In this document: one piece after another, positions 5,962-50,224 of the stretch
Position numbering within the stretch: the stretch's first letter is position 1
Layout: each line of letters opens with the position of its first letter
DNA from: Acidobacteriota bacterium
GTDB taxonomy: Bacteria; Acidobacteriota; Polarisedimenticolia; J045
Length of the DNA stretch: 64,000 bases
Assembly: GCA_030949985.1 (NCBI GenBank)
Contig: JAUZRX010000006.1
Coordinates: 1 to 64,000, forward strand
Direction: 5' to 3'
Position numbers and translations under genes: made by a program
Notes under the pieces: model-generated
Told to the model about the DNA's origin: nothing
The model's database searches: none
Seen by the model: only the letters and a program-made list of their open reading frames with translations

Positions 5962-7527
5962 ATGAAGAAGTCTGATCTGGCCGCCAGGTGTGCCTGGCTG
6001 CTGGCCGGATGGCTGCTGCTGGTCCTGCCGGCGGGGGCCGACGACCGGGTGACCGACCAGTTGCTGGTGGAGTTGACGGCCGGGGCCTCGGCCGACCGTG
6101 TGGCCGCCCGTCACGGCCTGATCATCGAGGACGGCATCGGGCTCTGGCGGCTGTGGCTGATGGTGGCCGCCGAGGGTACCGACATCGACCGGCTCGTCGG
6201 CGAGATGAACGCCGATCCCGACGTGGTGGAGGCCGAGCCCCACCGAAGCCTGGAGAACCCGGAAGGCGTCCTGCGTACCATCGGCGACCTGGATCGCTCG
6301 GCCGGCATCGACCAGTTCCGGGGGCAGGCCTCGGCCCGGACGGTGAGGGCTGCCCAGGCTCACGGGATGGGGCAGGGGGCGGGGACCATCGTGGCGGTGC
6401 TCGACACGGGTATGTCCTACCATCACGATGCCACGGCGGGCCGGATCATGACCACCCGTGCGCGCAACGAGGTCGATGGCAACACCGATGCGCGGCCGCA
6501 GCCCAACGGCGTCGATGACGACGGAGACGGCTCGGTGGACGAGATGCTGCACCACGGCACGCTGGTGGCCGGCATGGTCAATCTGGCGGCTCCCGCGGCG
6601 CGCATTCTGCCGATCCGGGTTCTCGATGCGGAGGGGAGGGGCACGGCCTTCGGCGTGGCCAGGGGTATCCTTTATGCCCTGCAGCACGGTGCCGACGTGA
6701 TCAACCTCTCCCTTGGCATGATCGACGAATCCAACGTCATCGAGCATGCCCTCGAGGAGGCATGGAAGGCGGGTGTCGTGGTCGTGGCGGCCGCCGGCAA
6801 CCGGAATCTCGACGAAGTGGATTTTCCCGCCAGTGATAGTCATACGATCGCCGTGGCCTCGGTCGATGAACGAAAAATCAGGTCAGCGTTCAGCTCCTAC
6901 GGAAGCGATGTCGACCTGACGGCTCCCGGTGTTCGCGTGCTCTCCACCTACGGCGAGGTGGACTATGGGCGCTGGGACGGTTCTTCGTTCGCCGCGCCGC
7001 TGGTCGCCGGAGCCGCCGCGCTGGTGGTCGAACGCTATCCCGGGCTGAGCCCGGACGAGGTGCTCGACCTCCTGGAGGCCACGGCTCAACCGGACGCCAA
7101 CGGCTCCCAGTGGAAGGGTTTGCTCGGTGCCGGCACCCTGGACCTCGAAGCCGTCGTCGCCGCCCGCACCGACGATCGCACCAGCCTGAAGGTCTTCGAG
7201 CGGAATCTGGGGACGGAGGTGCGCTGGACCGCCGTCCTCGATGCGGCGAATTACGACCTGGCCCGGGGCGAGGTGGCCGCGCTTTCCACGGTCGACGAGT
7301 CCACCGTCGATCTCGGCCCCCTGGCCTGCCTTGCGGACGACACGCCGGCGACCGACAACGCGGACAGTCCGGATGCCGCCGCACCGGCGCCGGGTACGGC
7401 GTTCTTCTACGTCTTCCGCGATGCCGGGACGGCGCGCGATGGAGCCGCCTGGGGCGTGGACAGCGCGGGTCGGGATCGGCTGGCCGGAGCCGGTGACTGC
7501 CGGCTGCCGTCGGGAAGCGGCTCCTGA
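5962..7527 (+). CDS. Secreted S8 family serine peptidase (subtilase)
   Basis: 521 residues; ATG 5962 abuts the previous TGA and has GGAGG at 5949-5953. A signal peptide covers about residues 1-26. Then come an inhibitor-like prodomain (about 27-95) and the catalytic domain (about 130-385). The triad is Asp148 (V-L-D-T-G), His198 (H-H-G-T-L-V-A-G) and Ser342 (G-S-S-F-A-A-P), with oxyanion Asn280. An Asp-rich loop N-G-V-D-D-D-G-D-G between Asp and His probably binds calcium. The nucleophile motif has G-S-S-F where most subtilases have G-T-S-M. Residues about 390-521 resemble fibronectin-like tails of exported Acidobacteria proteins (Y-D-L-A-R-G-E ... C-L-A-D-D). Its stop overlaps the next gene. 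Confidence 0.93.
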   Translation: MKKSDLAARCAWLLAGWLLLVLPAGADDRVTDQLLVELTAGASADRVAARHGLIIEDGIGLWRLWLMVAAEGTDIDRLVGEMNADPDVVEAEPHRSLENPEGVLRTIGDLDRSAGIDQFRGQASARTVRAAQAHGMGQGAGTIVAVLDTGMSYHHDATAGRIMTTRARNEVDGNTDARPQPNGVDDDGDGSVDEMLHHGTLVAGMVNLAAPAARILPIRVLDAEGRGTAFGVARGILYALQHGADVINLSLGMIDESNVIEHALEEAWKAGVVVVAAAGNRNLDEVDFPASDSHTIAVASVDERKIRSAFSSYGSDVDLTAPGVRVLSTYGEVDYGRWDGSSFAAPLVAGAAALVVERYPGLSPDEVLDLLEATAQPDANGSQWKGLLGAGTLDLEAVVAARTDDRTSLKVFERNLGTEVRWTAVLDAANYDLARGEVAALSTVDESTVDLGPLACLADDTPATDNADSPDAAAPAPGTAFFYVFRDAGTARDGAAWGVDSAGRDRLAGAGDCRLPSGSGS

Positions 7528-10248: not shown

Positions 10249-11210
10249 AGCGTGGCCTGGCAGCGGCGGGCCTGGTCCTGGCGGCCCTGGGCGGCCCCTG
10301 GCTGGTGGGGGGCTCCCCCGAGCCCAGCGCGGCGGCTTCCGCGGCGGCGTTGCTGCCCCCCCTGGCGCGGGTCGAGGAGGCGCGATTGACGGGGGGCGGT
10401 TTCCTGCGCGCGGAGAGCCTGGAGCCCGTGTCCGCGGGAGTCCAGGTGCGCGGCGGGGGCTACAGTCGCCTTCTGCCCGGGGTGCGGCTGGCCGGGCCGC
10501 CGCGTCCGCGGCGGCTGTGGCTGGGGAGCGACGCCCAGGGGCGGGACCTGGCCGGGAGGGTGGCCCGGGGAGGGCGTCGTGCCGTCCTCGTGGGCCTGTC
10601 CGCGGCGGGGCTGGCGCTGCTGTTGGCCACCGCCGTCGGCCTGCTGCGGGCCTGGCGCCCGGGGCCGCTGGGTCACCTGGCGGGGCTGCTCACCGACGGC
10701 ACCCTGGCGCTGCCCGGCCTGCTGGTGATGCTGGTTTTCGCTTCCGCGCTGGCCGGTCGCCCGTGGGGGGTGACCCTGGCCATCGCCGCGGTGGGCTGGG
10801 CCGGACCGTCGCGGCTGGTCCACCATCGGGCCGAGCGGTGGCGCGCCTCGGAGCGGGCCTGGTCGGCCAGGGCGGCGGGAGCCGGCCCCGTGCGCACCCT
10901 GACCCGCCACCTGCTGCCCGGAATCGCCGATCTCTTCCTCGCCGCCTCCCCCCTGCTCTTCGCCCAGGCGGTGCTCGTGGAAGCGACCCTCTCCTTTCTG
11001 GGGGTGGGTGGCGGATCGGAGGACTCCTGGGGCCGCCTGATCGCCGAGGCCTCCCGCACCCTGCCTGCCGGCTGGTGGCAGGTCGCCGCCCCCGGCGCCC
11101 TGCTCCTGCTGCTGACCACGGTGCTCTGGGAAGTCGGCCCGCGACACCCCGCCCGGTGGGAGATCACGAAAGCCGATTCAAGGGGGAACTCGGCGGCGCC
11201 CGCCGACTGA
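10245..11210 (+). CDS. Peptide ABC transporter permease, DppC/OppC type
   Basis: 321 residues from ATG 10245, overlapping the previous stop as ATGA. An N-terminal membrane segment is followed by a long periplasmic part carrying L-G-S-D-A-Q-G-R-D, the DppC-type L-G-T-D-x-x-G-R-D motif. About five further membrane helices, L-V-E-A-T-L-S-F-L-G-V-G and a W-G-R-L-I tail follow. It pairs with the DppB-type protein. It ends the rightward run; the convergent neighbour begins 139 bp on. DppD/DppF-type ATPases are absent and must come from elsewhere if the importer works. Confidence 0.87.
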   Translation: MKRGLAAAGLVLAALGGPWLVGGSPEPSAAASAAALLPPLARVEEARLTGGGFLRAESLEPVSAGVQVRGGGYSRLLPGVRLAGPPRPRRLWLGSDAQGRDLAGRVARGGRRAVLVGLSAAGLALLLATAVGLLRAWRPGPLGHLAGLLTDGTLALPGLLVMLVFASALAGRPWGVTLAIAAVGWAGPSRLVHHRAERWRASERAWSARAAGAGPVRTLTRHLLPGIADLFLAASPLLFAQAVLVEATLSFLGVGGGSEDSWGRLIAEASRTLPAGWWQVAAPGALLLLLTTVLWEVGPRHPARWEITKADSRGNSAAPAD

Positions 11211-27613: not shown

Positions 27614-27628
27614 GTCTCAGGCTGAGAC
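27614..27628. promoter_or_regulatory. Perfect 15-bp palindrome, candidate activator-binding site
   Basis: GTCTCAG-G-CTGAGAC is a perfect 7+1+7 inverted repeat, about 90 bp upstream of the -24 element at 27523, the usual place for a sigma-54 enhancer site. The same half-site GTCTCA/TGAGAC is clustered upstream of the subtilase gene at 48247-49782. Confidence 0.65.
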
Positions 27629-45423: not shown

Positions 45424-46521
45424 ATGCAGACCTGGATCGTCACCGGCGGGGCCGGCTTCATCGGCAGCAACTTCGTGCGCCTGGCCCTGGACCGGACCTC
45501 GGCGCGGATCGTGGTCTACGACAAGCTGACCTATGCGGGCAGCCTCGAGAGCCTGGCCGATGTGCGGGAGGATCCGCGCTTCCTCTTCGTCCACGGTGAT
45601 ATCGCCGACCGCCAGGCGGTGGGCCGGTTGCTCGATGAACACCGGCCGGATGTGCTGGTGAACTTCGCGGCGGAGAGCCATGTGGATCGTTCGATCGATG
45701 ATCCCGGCACCTTTATCGAGACCAATATCCGCGGTACCTGGACCCTGCTCGAGGAGAGCCGCAGGATGCTCGCGGCGCGGGAGGCAAAGGCGCGGGAGGC
45801 GTTCCGCTTCCTCCAGGTCTCCACCGACGAGGTCTATGGCAGCCTGGGCGAGGAGGGGGCCTTCAGCGAGACCACACCGTACGCGCCGAATTCCCCCTAC
45901 GCCGCGTCGAAGGCGGCGGCGGACCACATCGCCCGTTCCTACCAGCGTACGTTCGGCATGGGGGTCGTGATCACCAACTGCTCGAACAACTACGGCCCGT
46001 TCCAGTTTCCCGAGAAGCTGATTCCCCTGATGATCCTCAACGCCCTCGAGGGTCGGCCGCTGCCGATCTACGGTGATGGCGGGAACGTGCGGGACTGGCT
46101 CTACGTGGAGGATCACTGCGAGGGACTGCTCCGTGTGATCGAGGGGGGGCGGCCGGGGGAAAAGTACAACCTGGGAGGAGGTTGCGAGTTGACCAACCTG
46201 GAACTGGTCGACCGGCTCTGCGCGATTCTCGACGAGTTGCGGCCGCCTGCGGACAATCCCCGGATGCGGGACCGGGGATCGAACTCCTACGCCGACCTGA
46301 AGACTTTCGTCGCCGATCGGCCGGGGCATGACCGGCGCTACGCGATCGACGCGACCAAGATCCGCCGCGAGCTGGGCTGGACACCTCGTCATGACTTCGA
46401 GGCGGGGCTTCGGCGTACGGTGGAGTGGTATCTCGAGCATCGTTCCTGGTGCCAGGCCGTTCAGGAGAACAATTACGACCGGCAGCGGCTGGGGCTCGAC
46501 CATGGCGCTGTCCGACACTGA
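45424..46521 (+). CDS. rfbB: dTDP-glucose 4,6-dehydratase
   Basis: 365 residues from ATG 45424 with GGAGGGAG upstream. Extended SDR: NAD site G-G-A-G-F-I-G near residue 8, S-T-D-E-V-Y-G and catalytic Y-A-A-S-K, then N-N-Y-G-P-F-Q-F-P-E-K, which are typical of RmlB. It makes dTDP-4-keto-6-deoxyglucose, precursor of rhamnose and other deoxysugars. The other rml genes are not beside it. It overlaps the next gene by 20 bp. Confidence 0.95.
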   Translation: MQTWIVTGGAGFIGSNFVRLALDRTSARIVVYDKLTYAGSLESLADVREDPRFLFVHGDIADRQAVGRLLDEHRPDVLVNFAAESHVDRSIDDPGTFIETNIRGTWTLLEESRRMLAAREAKAREAFRFLQVSTDEVYGSLGEEGAFSETTPYAPNSPYAASKAAADHIARSYQRTFGMGVVITNCSNNYGPFQFPEKLIPLMILNALEGRPLPIYGDGGNVRDWLYVEDHCEGLLRVIEGGRPGEKYNLGGGCELTNLELVDRLCAILDELRPPADNPRMRDRGSNSYADLKTFVADRPGHDRRYAIDATKIRRELGWTPRHDFEAGLRRTVEWYLEHRSWCQAVQENNYDRQRLGLDHGAVRH

Positions 46522-47998
46522 AAGGAGGGGCCGCCGGGTGGACGCTGTTCCCCTCTGTGTCGACCTCGACGGCACCCTGGTCGCTACCGACACACTCTGG
46601 GAATCGGTGCGGAGGATCGTCGGTCGCCGGCCCTGGCGCCTGCCGGGATTGGGCCTCGCCCTGCTGCGGGGGCGGGTGGCGTTCAAGGCGGTGACGGCCG
46701 CGGCGGATGACTTCGAGGCCGACGCCTTGCCCTACCGGGAGGAGGTCCTCGACCTGGTGCGGCGCGCCCGCAGCGAGGGACGTCCGGTGCTGCTGGTCAC
46801 CGCGGCCCACGAGAGTGTCGCCCTCGAGGTGGCCGCGCACCTGGGACTCTTCGACGAGGTGCTGGCCACGGGGGACGAGGAGAACCTCAAGGGTGCCGCC
46901 AAGGCTGCGGTGCTGGAGGGACGTTTCGGGCGGGGGGGCTTCGACTATGTCGGAGATTCCACCGCCGACCTGGCTGTCTTCGCCGTGGCTCGCAGGGCCT
47001 TTCTCGTCGCACCTTCCGGCTCGATGGCGAGGCGCGCTCGAGCGCTGACGGAGGGCAGGGGTGAGACGATCTGTCGCCGGCCTGCGCGCCTGAAGGCTCT
47101 GGTGGCCGCCTTGCGCCCCCACCAATGGTCGAAAAACGCCCTGATCCTGGCGCCGGCTTTGATGGGGCACGATCTGCCGGCTGCGTCCCAGGCGCTGGCG
47201 GGGATCTTCGCTTTTGTCGCCTTCAGCCTCTGCGCGTCCGCCGGTTACGTGCTCAACGACCTGGTGGACCTCGACGCGGATCGGCGTCATCGCAGCAAGC
47301 GCCGCCGGCCTTTCGCCCGGGGCGACCTGCCCCTCTACTGGGGGCCGTTTCTGGTCGTGGCGCTGCTCGCTGTTTCGGCGGGTCTGGCCTGGATCGCCAC
47401 GCCGCCGATCTTCGTGGGCCTGCTCGGCTTCTATTTTCTGCTCAGCCTGGGCTACTCCTACGCCTTCAAGCGCCGTCCGGTGATCGACGTGCTGGTCCTG
47501 GCCGGGCTCTACACCTTGCGGCTGCTCTCGGGTGGGGTGGCGATGGGCATCGAGATTTCCGCGTGGCTGTTGGCTTTTTCGACCTTTCTCTTCTTTTCCC
47601 TGGCCATGGCCAAGCGGTATACGGAACTGCTGGCTCTCGAAGGGGGACGTGACGAGAAGATCGGGCGCCGGGGTTACCTCCGCCGCGACCTGGAGATGGT
47701 GGCCAGCATGGGGCCGGCCGCGGGCTACATCGCCGTGCTGGTCTTCGCCCTCTACCTGAACAGTGACCGCGTGCGGATGAACTACGAGGAGCCTTTCGTG
47801 CTCTGGCTGGCGGCGCCGTTGCTGCTGTACTGGATCACCAGGATCTGGTTCCTGGCGCACCGCGGGGAGCTCGATGACGATCCGGTGAAGTTCGCCCTGG
47901 TGGATCCCGAGAGCTGGGTTTGTGCCGGGCTGGTTCTGTTGATCGCGGCCCTGGCTCGATACTTGCCGAACATCGACCTGATCCAGCTCGTTCCCTAG
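46502..47998 (+). CDS. HAD hydrolase - UbiA prenyltransferase fusion
   Basis: 498 residues from ATG 46502, inside the end of rfbB. Residues about 15-200 are a HAD phosphatase: D-L-D-G-T-L (Asp21, Asp23) and Y-V-G-D-S-T-A-D. Residues about 205-498 are an intramembrane UbiA prenyltransferase with N-D-L-V-D-L-D-A-D (Asn252, Asp253) and about eight helices. The UbiA part resembles decaprenyl-phosphate phosphoribose synthase of arabinogalactan assembly. A fused HAD could then remove the 5-phosphate, giving polyprenyl-phosphate ribose in one protein (inference). Confidence 0.88.
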   Translation: MALSDTERRGRRVDAVPLCVDLDGTLVATDTLWESVRRIVGRRPWRLPGLGLALLRGRVAFKAVTAAADDFEADALPYREEVLDLVRRARSEGRPVLLVTAAHESVALEVAAHLGLFDEVLATGDEENLKGAAKAAVLEGRFGRGGFDYVGDSTADLAVFAVARRAFLVAPSGSMARRARALTEGRGETICRRPARLKALVAALRPHQWSKNALILAPALMGHDLPAASQALAGIFAFVAFSLCASAGYVLNDLVDLDADRRHRSKRRRPFARGDLPLYWGPFLVVALLAVSAGLAWIATPPIFVGLLGFYFLLSLGYSYAFKRRPVIDVLVLAGLYTLRLLSGGVAMGIEISAWLLAFSTFLFFSLAMAKRYTELLALEGGRDEKIGRRGYLRRDLEMVASMGPAAGYIAVLVFALYLNSDRVRMNYEEPFVLWLAAPLLLYWITRIWFLAHRGELDDDPVKFALVDPESWVCAGLVLLIAALARYLPNIDLIQLVP

Positions 47999-48246: not shown

Positions 48247-49782
48247 CTAGTCCTCGATCGTGCCCGGAGCCGTATCGGCCCAGAGGATACCGTCGCCCCA
48301 GAGGATGCCGTCGGCCCAGGCGGCCATGTCACCCCAGAGGATGCCGTCGCCCCAGAGGATACCGTCGCCCCAAACCGCGCCGTCACCGTAGACCTTGTCG
48401 AAGCCGGTGAGCAGAGCCGGGCGGCCGTCACGGGGGGTGATCAGGTAGAGGCTGACGCCGGCAGGGTGCCGTGCCACCAGGGGGGAGCTGGAGTTGAAGT
48501 GACCGATACCGGCCACTTCGTCGGAGAGTTCCATGGCCGCTTCCACGTCCATGTAGCCGGCGCCGCGGGCGAAGACGTCCACGCCCTCGAGCTTCTCGGC
48601 AGAACGCATCAGTACGGCCTTGACCGCGTCGTTGGTCATGTTCGGATGGCGCTCGAGGAGCAGGGCCGCGGCACCGCTGACGACGCCGGCCGCCATGCTG
48701 GTTCCGGAAAGCTCGATGCCTTCGTCGGTGAGCTTTTCCGGGTGCTCGGTGGCCAGGGTCGAACCGGGAGCCACCGGGCCGACGATGCGGTTGCCCGGAG
48801 CGACCAGGTCAGGCTTGACCACGAAGTCACCCCAGGAAGGACCACGGCTGCTGTAGGTCGTCACTTCGTCGTCGCCGCGGGCGATGGTGTTGAAGTCGTT
48901 CATCGCGCCGGCGGTGATCACCAGGGGATCGTTGCCCGGAGCGTTGATCGTCATGCTGCCGTCACGGCCGCGGTTACCGGCGGAGGCCACCACGGTCAGG
49001 CCGGCGGCCCAGGCGCGACGGACCGCGATGTTGACCGGGTCGTAGCGGAAGGACATGCGCGGCGCGTAACCCAGAGAGAGGTTGACCACCTGGATGCCGT
49101 ACTCTTCGCGGTGGGTGATGACCCAGTCCATGGCCGCCAGGACGTCGGAGAGCCGGCCGCGCCCCTCGGCGTCGAGCACCCGCAGGACCACCAGGTTGGC
49201 TTCCGGTGCCAGGCCCTTGTCACCGGCGACGATGCCGGCGATGTGGGTGCCGTGGCCGAAACCATCGACAGCCTGTCCGCCGTCTTCGACGAAGTCGACC
49301 CGGGCCAGCACGCGCTCTTCGGGGAGGGCGGCTTCAGGGGTCAGGCCGGAGTCGATCAGCGCCACCGTCACGCCGCGGCCGGTGTGGCCGTAGCGCTGCC
49401 AGGCGATGTCTGCGTTGGTGGCGGCGCGGGCGACGTCCAGGTTGGCCCGCAAGACGCGGTCCTCGGTGATGGTCAGGACATCGGCGGCCTGGCTCAGGCG
49501 CTCGAGAGTCTGGCGGTCGAGGCGACCGGTGATGGCTCCGAGCCGCGTCGAGCGGAAGTCTTCACTCAGGCCCTCGAGGGCGGCGGGAAGCGTGGCTCCC
49601 TCGCGGAGCTGAATCACCACCGGGACCGTGGCGTCGCCGGTCGTGTCGGTCGCCGCGTTCTCGAAGAGCTGGACCAGCTCTGCCGAGACCTTGACCCGCT
49701 CGGGAACGGCGCCGAATACCATTCCGGCAGCGATAGCGACCAGGGCGAGGGTTGAAATCAGGATTCCGAGTCTACGTTGCAT
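48247..49782 (-). CDS. Secreted S8 subtilase with hexapeptide W-G-D repeat tail
   Basis: 511 residues; ATG 49782 is chosen for GGAG seven bases upstream (ATG 49797 is earlier in frame). A signal peptide covers 1-25 and an I9-like prodomain about 30-120. The triad is Asp144 (L-I-D-S-G), His177 (G-H-G-T-H) and Ser362 (G-T-S-M-A), with oxyanion Asn270 (S-A-G-N). The serine is followed by A-A-G-V-V-S-G, not the common A-A-P-H-V-A-G. Residues 466-501 are six hexapeptides of type G-D-G-I-L-W. It has its own sigma-54-type promoter, a GTCTCA site cluster and a terminator. It lies downstream of the giant regulator gene on the same strand. Confidence 0.93.
   Translation of the reverse strand: MQRRLGILISTLALVAIAAGMVFGAVPERVKVSAELVQLFENAATDTTGDATVPVVIQLREGATLPAALEGLSEDFRSTRLGAITGRLDRQTLERLSQAADVLTITEDRVLRANLDVARAATNADIAWQRYGHTGRGVTVALIDSGLTPEAALPEERVLARVDFVEDGGQAVDGFGHGTHIAGIVAGDKGLAPEANLVVLRVLDAEGRGRLSDVLAAMDWVITHREEYGIQVVNLSLGYAPRMSFRYDPVNIAVRRAWAAGLTVVASAGNRGRDGSMTINAPGNDPLVITAGAMNDFNTIARGDDEVTTYSSRGPSWGDFVVKPDLVAPGNRIVGPVAPGSTLATEHPEKLTDEGIELSGTSMAAGVVSGAAALLLERHPNMTNDAVKAVLMRSAEKLEGVDVFARGAGYMDVEAAMELSDEVAGIGHFNSSSPLVARHPAGVSLYLITPRDGRPALLTGFDKVYGDGAVWGDGILWGDGILWGDMAAWADGILWGDGILWADTAPGTIED
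48280..48387 (-). repeat. Six 18-bp tandem repeats encoding the W-G-D tail
   Basis: Exactly 108 bp encodes GDGAVW, GDGILW, GDGILW, GDMAAW, ADGILW, GDGILW. The 18-bp DNA units are nearly identical, differing mostly at third positions. Similar Trp-Gly-Asp tails occur on subtilases of Acidobacteria and Chloroflexi (from memory); their function is unknown to me. Confidence 0.9.
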
Positions 49783-49875
49783 GGTCCTTCTCCCCATGGA
49801 TGCCTGTGAAGGCTGGTTTCTGCTGCGGGGCTCAGGGGCTCATGGTGCGATGCCTTCCGAACCCACCCTCCTCTA

Positions 49876-49895
49876 TATCAAGTTCCTTGCCAAGT
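49876..49895 (-). promoter_or_regulatory. Sigma-54-type promoter of the repeat-tailed subtilase gene
   Basis: The minus strand reads CTTGGCAAGGAACTTGATAT. GG (plus 49890-49891) and GA (49878-49879) are ten bases apart. TTGGCAAG matches the -24 consensus TTGGCACG at seven of eight positions. The -12 half is TTGAT, so the normally invariant GC is GA. The predicted start leaves a leader of about 85 nt. Confidence 0.6.
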
Positions 49896-49903
49896 CTGAA
49901 TCA

Positions 49904-50118
49904 GTCTCAAGTTGTTGCTATAAAAAGACTTGATGCCTTTGCGACAAGGGGGGCGATTCTGTCTCTCCATGGCGGGTGTCTCATGCCGCGCGAGACCTGT
50001 AACCCCCTGCAAAAAAGCGTTTTGGGTCTGTCTCACGGGCCCTGTGTCAGCGAGACAGGGAGCCTCTGAGACTGAGACGGTCGCATCGGTTCCGGTAAGG
50101 GTCGCGGGGGTGTCTCAG
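49904..50118. promoter_or_regulatory. Cluster of GTCTCA / TGAGAC half-sites upstream of the subtilase promoter
   Basis: Six exact half-sites: GTCTCA at 49904, 49978, 50030 and 50112, and tandem TGAGAC at 50067 and 50073. Two further partial GAGAC sites lie at 49991 and 50052, making imperfect inverted pairs (49978-49995; 50029-50057). The cluster runs from about 12 to 230 bp upstream of the -24 box. The half-site is the one forming the palindrome at 27614-27628. The likely binder is the Fis-type regulator encoded next door. Confidence 0.65.
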
Positions 50119-50224
50119 GGCGGGTTCGGCCGAGCCTCGTCACCCGGGGCATCCCGGGGGGACGGCCCATGGGCCGGGGTGCGGGGAGGACGAGAGCCGT
50201 CTCCGCCGGCCCGGGCCGGCGCCC

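Follow-up and report, generated by a model that had tools for sequence, protein, structure and literature searches.

A gap of 442 bp (49783 to 50224) in the window, which is the whole 64,000-nucleotide stretch of Acidobacteriota DNA analysed here, very probably contains a real and undescribed gene switch made up of an array of GTCTCA half-sites and a sigma-54 promoter. In our preferred reading, to which we assign a probability of about 0.8, the array is a two-site sigma-54 enhancer that would be bound by the adjacent kinase-ATPase-TPR-GAF regulator and would drive a predicted secreted subtilase with W(G/S/A/T)D repeats. The sites, their geometry and conservation, the co-occurrence of the regulator and the domain content were all determined by computation; binding, looping, activation and export are what we infer from them.

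The gap extends from the ATG of the subtilase gene (49782) to the stop codon of the regulator gene (50225), and both genes are on the minus strand with the regulator first. A preliminary description of this DNA had reported six exact copies of GTCTCA or its complement, TGAGAC, in the gap. All six were found, with a span of 214 bp, and two GTCTCG variants were present besides. The chance expectation of ∼0.1 copies given in that description assumed even base use and was not upheld, as 2000 dinucleotide shuffles of the gap gave a mean of 0.21 and a maximum of 3, but the excess itself held. The placement of the six copies upstream of the -24/-12 box was also confirmed, yet the site at 49904 is only 12 bp from the box. 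With the variants and two further copies of GTCTC, the total for this 5-mer was 10 in the gap, compared to an expectation of 1.4 and a maximum of 6 in the shuffles. The remaining 63.5 kb had 7 copies of GTCTCA, and the entire window thus had 13 versus 26.7 expected, indicating depletion of the 6-mer elsewhere in the window. Since 6.6% of the gap shuffles had at least one 6-mer with a copy number of 6 or higher, the GTCTCA count by itself is suggestive and the comparative evidence is decisive. A chance origin of the array was ruled out by the shuffles in combination with conservation.

Table. Features of the gap, its flanking genes and related loci. Coordinates are those of the window unless a locus (L number) is named; negative numbers are counted from the GG of the -24 element.
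Feature	Location	Strand	Basis
Predicted secreted Peptidase_S8 subtilase with C-terminal WGDGILWGD repeat tail	48247..49782	-	PF00082, E 1.5e-48; repeats; ATG with ribosome-binding site
Candidate -24/-12 sigma-54 box TGGCAAGGAACTTGAT, GG-N10-GA	49877..49892	-	Position and conservation
GTCTCA beside box, -16	49904..49909	+	12 bp upstream of box
GTCTCA, predicted proximal enhancer site, -90	49978..49983	+	Identical position in sister species
GTCTCG variant	49991..49996	-	Sequence
GTCTCA, -142	50030..50035	+	Sequence
GTCTCG variant	50051..50056	-	Sequence
Two abutting GTCTCA (from 50067 and 50073), predicted distal enhancer site, -179/-185	50067..50078	-	Identical position in sister species
GTCTCA, -224	50112..50117	+	Near -223 in sister species
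Regulator, ∼1726 aa	50225..55405	-	Pfam; start by homologue coverage and sequence
Small peptide ORFs with IWGD-like or NIGGAGPR repeats, behind regulator, GTCTCA and sigma-54 box	L163 ∼10570-10830; L164 3' end; L165 ∼10446-10655; L177 ∼6130-6520		

A -24/-12 box had been proposed on the minus strand of the gap, and a candidate was located there, though with GG-N10-GA. Its -12 element is weak, lacking the C of the usual GC and having TTGAT rather than TTGC. The box at the equivalent position of the sister species, TGGCAAGGGAATTGAT, likewise has GG-N10-GA and TTGAT. All 16 promoters of other genera had GG-N10-GC with TTGC; these boxes were picked by eye, and hence the invariance of TTGC is partly due to selection. 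When a matrix of the relatives' boxes, built without the window and the sister species, was applied, the window box was the top match within the gap, and equally good scores were obtained at 44 positions of the 64 kb. The call therefore depends on position and on conservation, and the box was the best-conserved part of the gap between the window and the sister species. From its position, the start of the subtilase transcript is predicted to be near 49866. The source genome (3.7 Mb in 133 contigs) encodes RpoN (PF04552, E 1.1e-62, G000:C49).

Subtilase homologues were detected in 41 of the 41 genomes searched, and many genera of the class have kept an array with a -24/-12 box in front of a subtilase homologue. 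Clusters of GTCTCA were present upstream of the homologues at L031 and L035 (7 copies each), L032, L033 and L034 (5 each), L038 (3), L039 (8), L041 (4) and L116 (7), and two or three copies were found at L036 and L042. No array was present upstream of the W-repeat subtilases of L037 and L040, and L043 had a box with no GTCTCA. Array-bearing subtilases were few per genome; in G020, the best match had no copies and another had 7. The sites formed two groups ∼89 bp apart, one proximal (about -90 to -118) and one distal (about -179 to -208). A pair of sites separated by 88 to 91 bp occurred in 11 of 18 promoters, compared to a maximum of 8 for any 4-bp distance window in 401 randomisations. The window and the sister species, whose genome is listed as that of an Acidobacteria MAG, both keep the sites at -90 and -179/-185, and the DNA between has diverged. 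The regulator and the array remained together at L031, L036 and L042, and at L154 the regulator gene and a subtilase fragment are divergent with shared sites in between. The retention of array and box, the two-group geometry, the co-occurrence of the regulator and the presence of RpoN supported the sigma-54 enhancer reading put forward in the preliminary description. A conserved protein of ∼159 aa (MYRTN...) with no Pfam match is encoded divergently from the subtilase at the same GTCTCA array in three loci (L033, 7727-8206; L041, 9644-10231; L116, 11062-11538).

The regulator ORF of 2736 aa was over-extended into unrelated sequence, and ATG 55405, giving 1726 aa, is the likely start. Pfam analysis detected HTH_8, a Ser/Thr kinase, an AAA_16 ATPase, TPR, GAF, a sigma-54 AAA+ domain (PF00158, E 9.4e-68) with its lid and a further HTH_8, the Fis-type HTH match having an E value of 6.5e-21 (PF02954). 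These domains and a GAFTGA loop in the translation agreed with the earlier identification of this gene as a sigma-54 activator with Fis-type HTHs. In homologues from outside the window's family, the kinase was the first part matched, and the N-terminal HTH is apparently missing.

In total, 56 copies of GTCTCA were counted in 14.6 kb flanking regulator orthologues, a set including regulators with and without an adjacent subtilase; 36 of them lay in the 9.5 kb examined 3' of the genes and 20 in the 5.1 kb examined 5' of them. The same length of DNA (14.6 kb) surrounding 20 other sigma-54 activators from the class had none. The P values for this excess, 5e-11 (3') and 3e-7 (5'), are uncorrected for relatedness and, because the sequences are related, are optimistic. 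Four orthologues (L124, L125, L128 and L160) had no flanking GTCTCA. A recognition helix of the form (S/G/P)RAT-x-(Y/F)-R was present in the regulators with a C terminus readable in frame, and RAT was absent from 19 of the 20 controls. Two sites 55 bp apart precede the regulator gene in family f10, and at L114, L115 and L117 a palindrome with an N3 spacer lies 36 to 57 bp ahead of the homologous kinase-type activator gene, which suggests that these activators are autoregulated. The tie between GTCTCA and the regulator, drawn as it is from sequence, is an association.

The main rival to the adjacent regulator is another member of the superfamily acting on the same sigma-54 enhancer, for example the paralogue G000:C51, or a sharing of the sites by both proteins. 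The recognition helix of the C51 paralogue (GRATLFRKI) is likewise of the RAT type, and the array is not adjacent to a regulator gene at L033, L034, L035, L039 and L041, implying that a distant activator can act. However, no GTCTCA was found in the 105 bp read upstream of the paralogue, the palindrome at its 3' end resembles a terminator hairpin, and at three loci the array and the adjacent regulator have stayed together, so that we regard this alternative as unlikely. Alternatively, GTCTCA could serve an unrelated repressor or nucleoid-type protein as its operator, with the sigma-54 box being fortuitous or used from other sites. The -16 site has a repressor-like placement, and in families f9 and f10 there are sites within the 5' region of the gene for the regulator, from which repression would be possible. 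This second alternative is nevertheless very unlikely, as the tag is tied to sigma-54 and to the regulator by the arrangement of the sites in two groups with respect to the -24/-12 box, by the invariant TTGC of the relatives and by the absence of tags around the 20 control activators.

Tags in the relatives were often paired as GTCTCA-N3-TGAGAC, whereas arrays in the window's family consisted mostly of unpaired half-sites. The palindrome was detected at 27 sites in the 41 genomes of the class (0 for the reversed control) and was near background in ∼355 genomes outside the class, and the idea that it extends beyond the class was rejected. Some isolated palindromes are contained in terminator-like hairpins (L107, L108, L109 and L121), and hence the 15-mer alone is no proof of an operator. 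Terminator hairpins were rejected as an explanation of the arrays and apply only to some isolated palindromes at these four loci. The hairpins contain GTCTCA-N3/N6-TGAGAC at L107 (5094), L109 (3358) and L121 (5901), and those of L107 and L109 are at the 3' end of a paralogous kinase-type activator gene. In genome G182, outside the class, 48 copies of GTCTCA in 14 kb formed dense clusters (L218 = G182:C25 3215-6799; L219) with no regulator or subtilase match in the regions examined, and these look like a separate repeat family. Despite such hairpins and clusters, it is extremely unlikely that the tags belong to a family of repeats or hairpins, such as terminators or mobile palindromes, with no regulatory role, as those of the window are separate half-sites with no N3 palindrome and no T-runs, their number and position were kept while the intervening DNA diverged, and there was no cluster at the 20 control activator loci.

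A genome-wide search for paired GTCTCA sites, which had been proposed as a check, recovered the window array in the source genome and otherwise only isolated pairs; a broad regulon was accordingly not seen in this genome. Within the window, the palindrome GTCTCAGGCTGAGAC occurs at 27614-27628 upstream of the start (about 27800) of a carbamate-kinase-like gene. The same 15-mer precedes the corresponding gene of the sister species (L110, 5923), with diverged flanking DNA.

The start of the subtilase gene has a good ribosome-binding site and is consistent with the gap boundary that had been drawn, and the N terminus of the protein is hydrophobic. The gene past the subtilase (UbiA/HAD, 46328-47998) is convergent, and the subtilase is therefore probably transcribed alone as a monocistronic transcript. 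The length of the W-repeat tail was highly variable among close relatives, with 6 repeat matches in the window (48250-49782) and 29 in the sister species (L031, 5530-7536). AlphaFold2 models of the tail from two sequences had a mean pLDDT of 34 and were uninformative as to its structure.

Other loci had a small peptide gene in place of the protease. At L163 (genome G030), 6 copies of GTCTCA and a consensus box follow the regulator, together with a small ORF that has a signal-peptide-like start and the repeats GAIWGERGAIWGDHGAIWGGHGAIWSND and does not encode a protease. Similar small, predicted secreted peptides were found at L164 and L165, and L177 had one with repeated NIGGAGPR; signal peptides were assessed by eye. 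These replacements suggest that the constant output is a secreted protein, which seems usually to carry short repeats, and that the protease is optional. Small secreted-looking proteins with a DxNPF/DPW-like tail also adjoin kinase-type sigma-54 activators (L114, 5345-5749; L115, 4455-5204; L117, just upstream of 6148; L157, 3' of the regulator) and could be another peptide family paired with kinase-type regulators.

The small secreted repeat peptides suggest a peptide-signalling role. RRNPP-type peptide pheromone systems have a gene for a TPR-containing regulator beside a gene for a small secreted peptide. By analogy, at L163, L165 and L177 a TPR regulator gene adjoins the gene of a small secreted peptide, its probable target, but the regulator is of a different class, there are several repeats per precursor and the likeness is one of adjacency only. 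A full peptide-signalling or autoinduction circuit is quite unlikely; in it, the activator would induce the IWGD-type (L163) or NIGGAGPR-type (L177) peptide or the subtilase with a W(G/S/A/T)D tail, and the processed repeats or the resulting surface state would be sensed via the TPR or kinase parts.

In the preferred reading of a two-site enhancer served by the adjacent regulator, the kinase, TPR and GAF parts would sense a signal and the C-terminal HTH would bind GTCTCA. The operator in much of the class would be the palindrome GTCTCA-N3-TGAGAC, and in the window's family mostly looser half-sites, perhaps because the window's regulator carries an additional HTH at its N terminus. The idea that nonpalindromic arrays strictly accompany an N-terminal HTH was weakened by families f6 and f9, in which the promoters have half-sites and the regulator matches begin at the kinase. 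The AAA+ hexamer would be assembled by dimers at two sites with a spacing of ∼89 bp, one roughly 90 bp and the other roughly 180 bp upstream of the -24 element. Through looping, it would then engage RNA polymerase-sigma54 and cause the promoter to open. The resulting transcript, from about 49866, would encode the secreted W(G/S/A/T)D-repeat subtilase.

In open-licence PMC papers, a limited set, no description was found of the motif, the W-repeat or the regulon, or of the kinase-ATPase-TPR activator and its targets. The present analysis would link the class of very large kinase-ATPase-sigma54 regulators, in a host group known mostly from metagenomes, to a DNA motif, an arrangement of enhancer sites and a target. 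It also provides a search tag for further targets, GTCTCA-N3-TGAGAC upstream of GG-N10-GC, and marks a set of W-repeat proteins and small peptides, predicted to be secreted, as the putative controlled output. A comparative study views sigma-54 as a controller of the bacterial exterior (PMC3162934), and the predicted export of the target found here is in keeping with that view; the terms Acidobacteria and protein kinase are absent from its main text, and this regulator, motif and target set did not appear in the study. Enhancer sites of the NtrC type lie roughly 100 to 150 bp upstream (PMC7057263). The putative switch resembles sigma-54 enhancers of the NtrC/NifA type, as reviewed in the same article, in its candidate -24/-12 box, its predicted paired upstream sites ∼100 to 200 bp away and its AAA+ activator with a Fis-type HTH. 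It differs from them in its putative new operator, GTCTCA(-N3-TGAGAC), in the very large kinase-ATPase-TPR-GAF activator and in having predicted secreted repeat proteins as targets.
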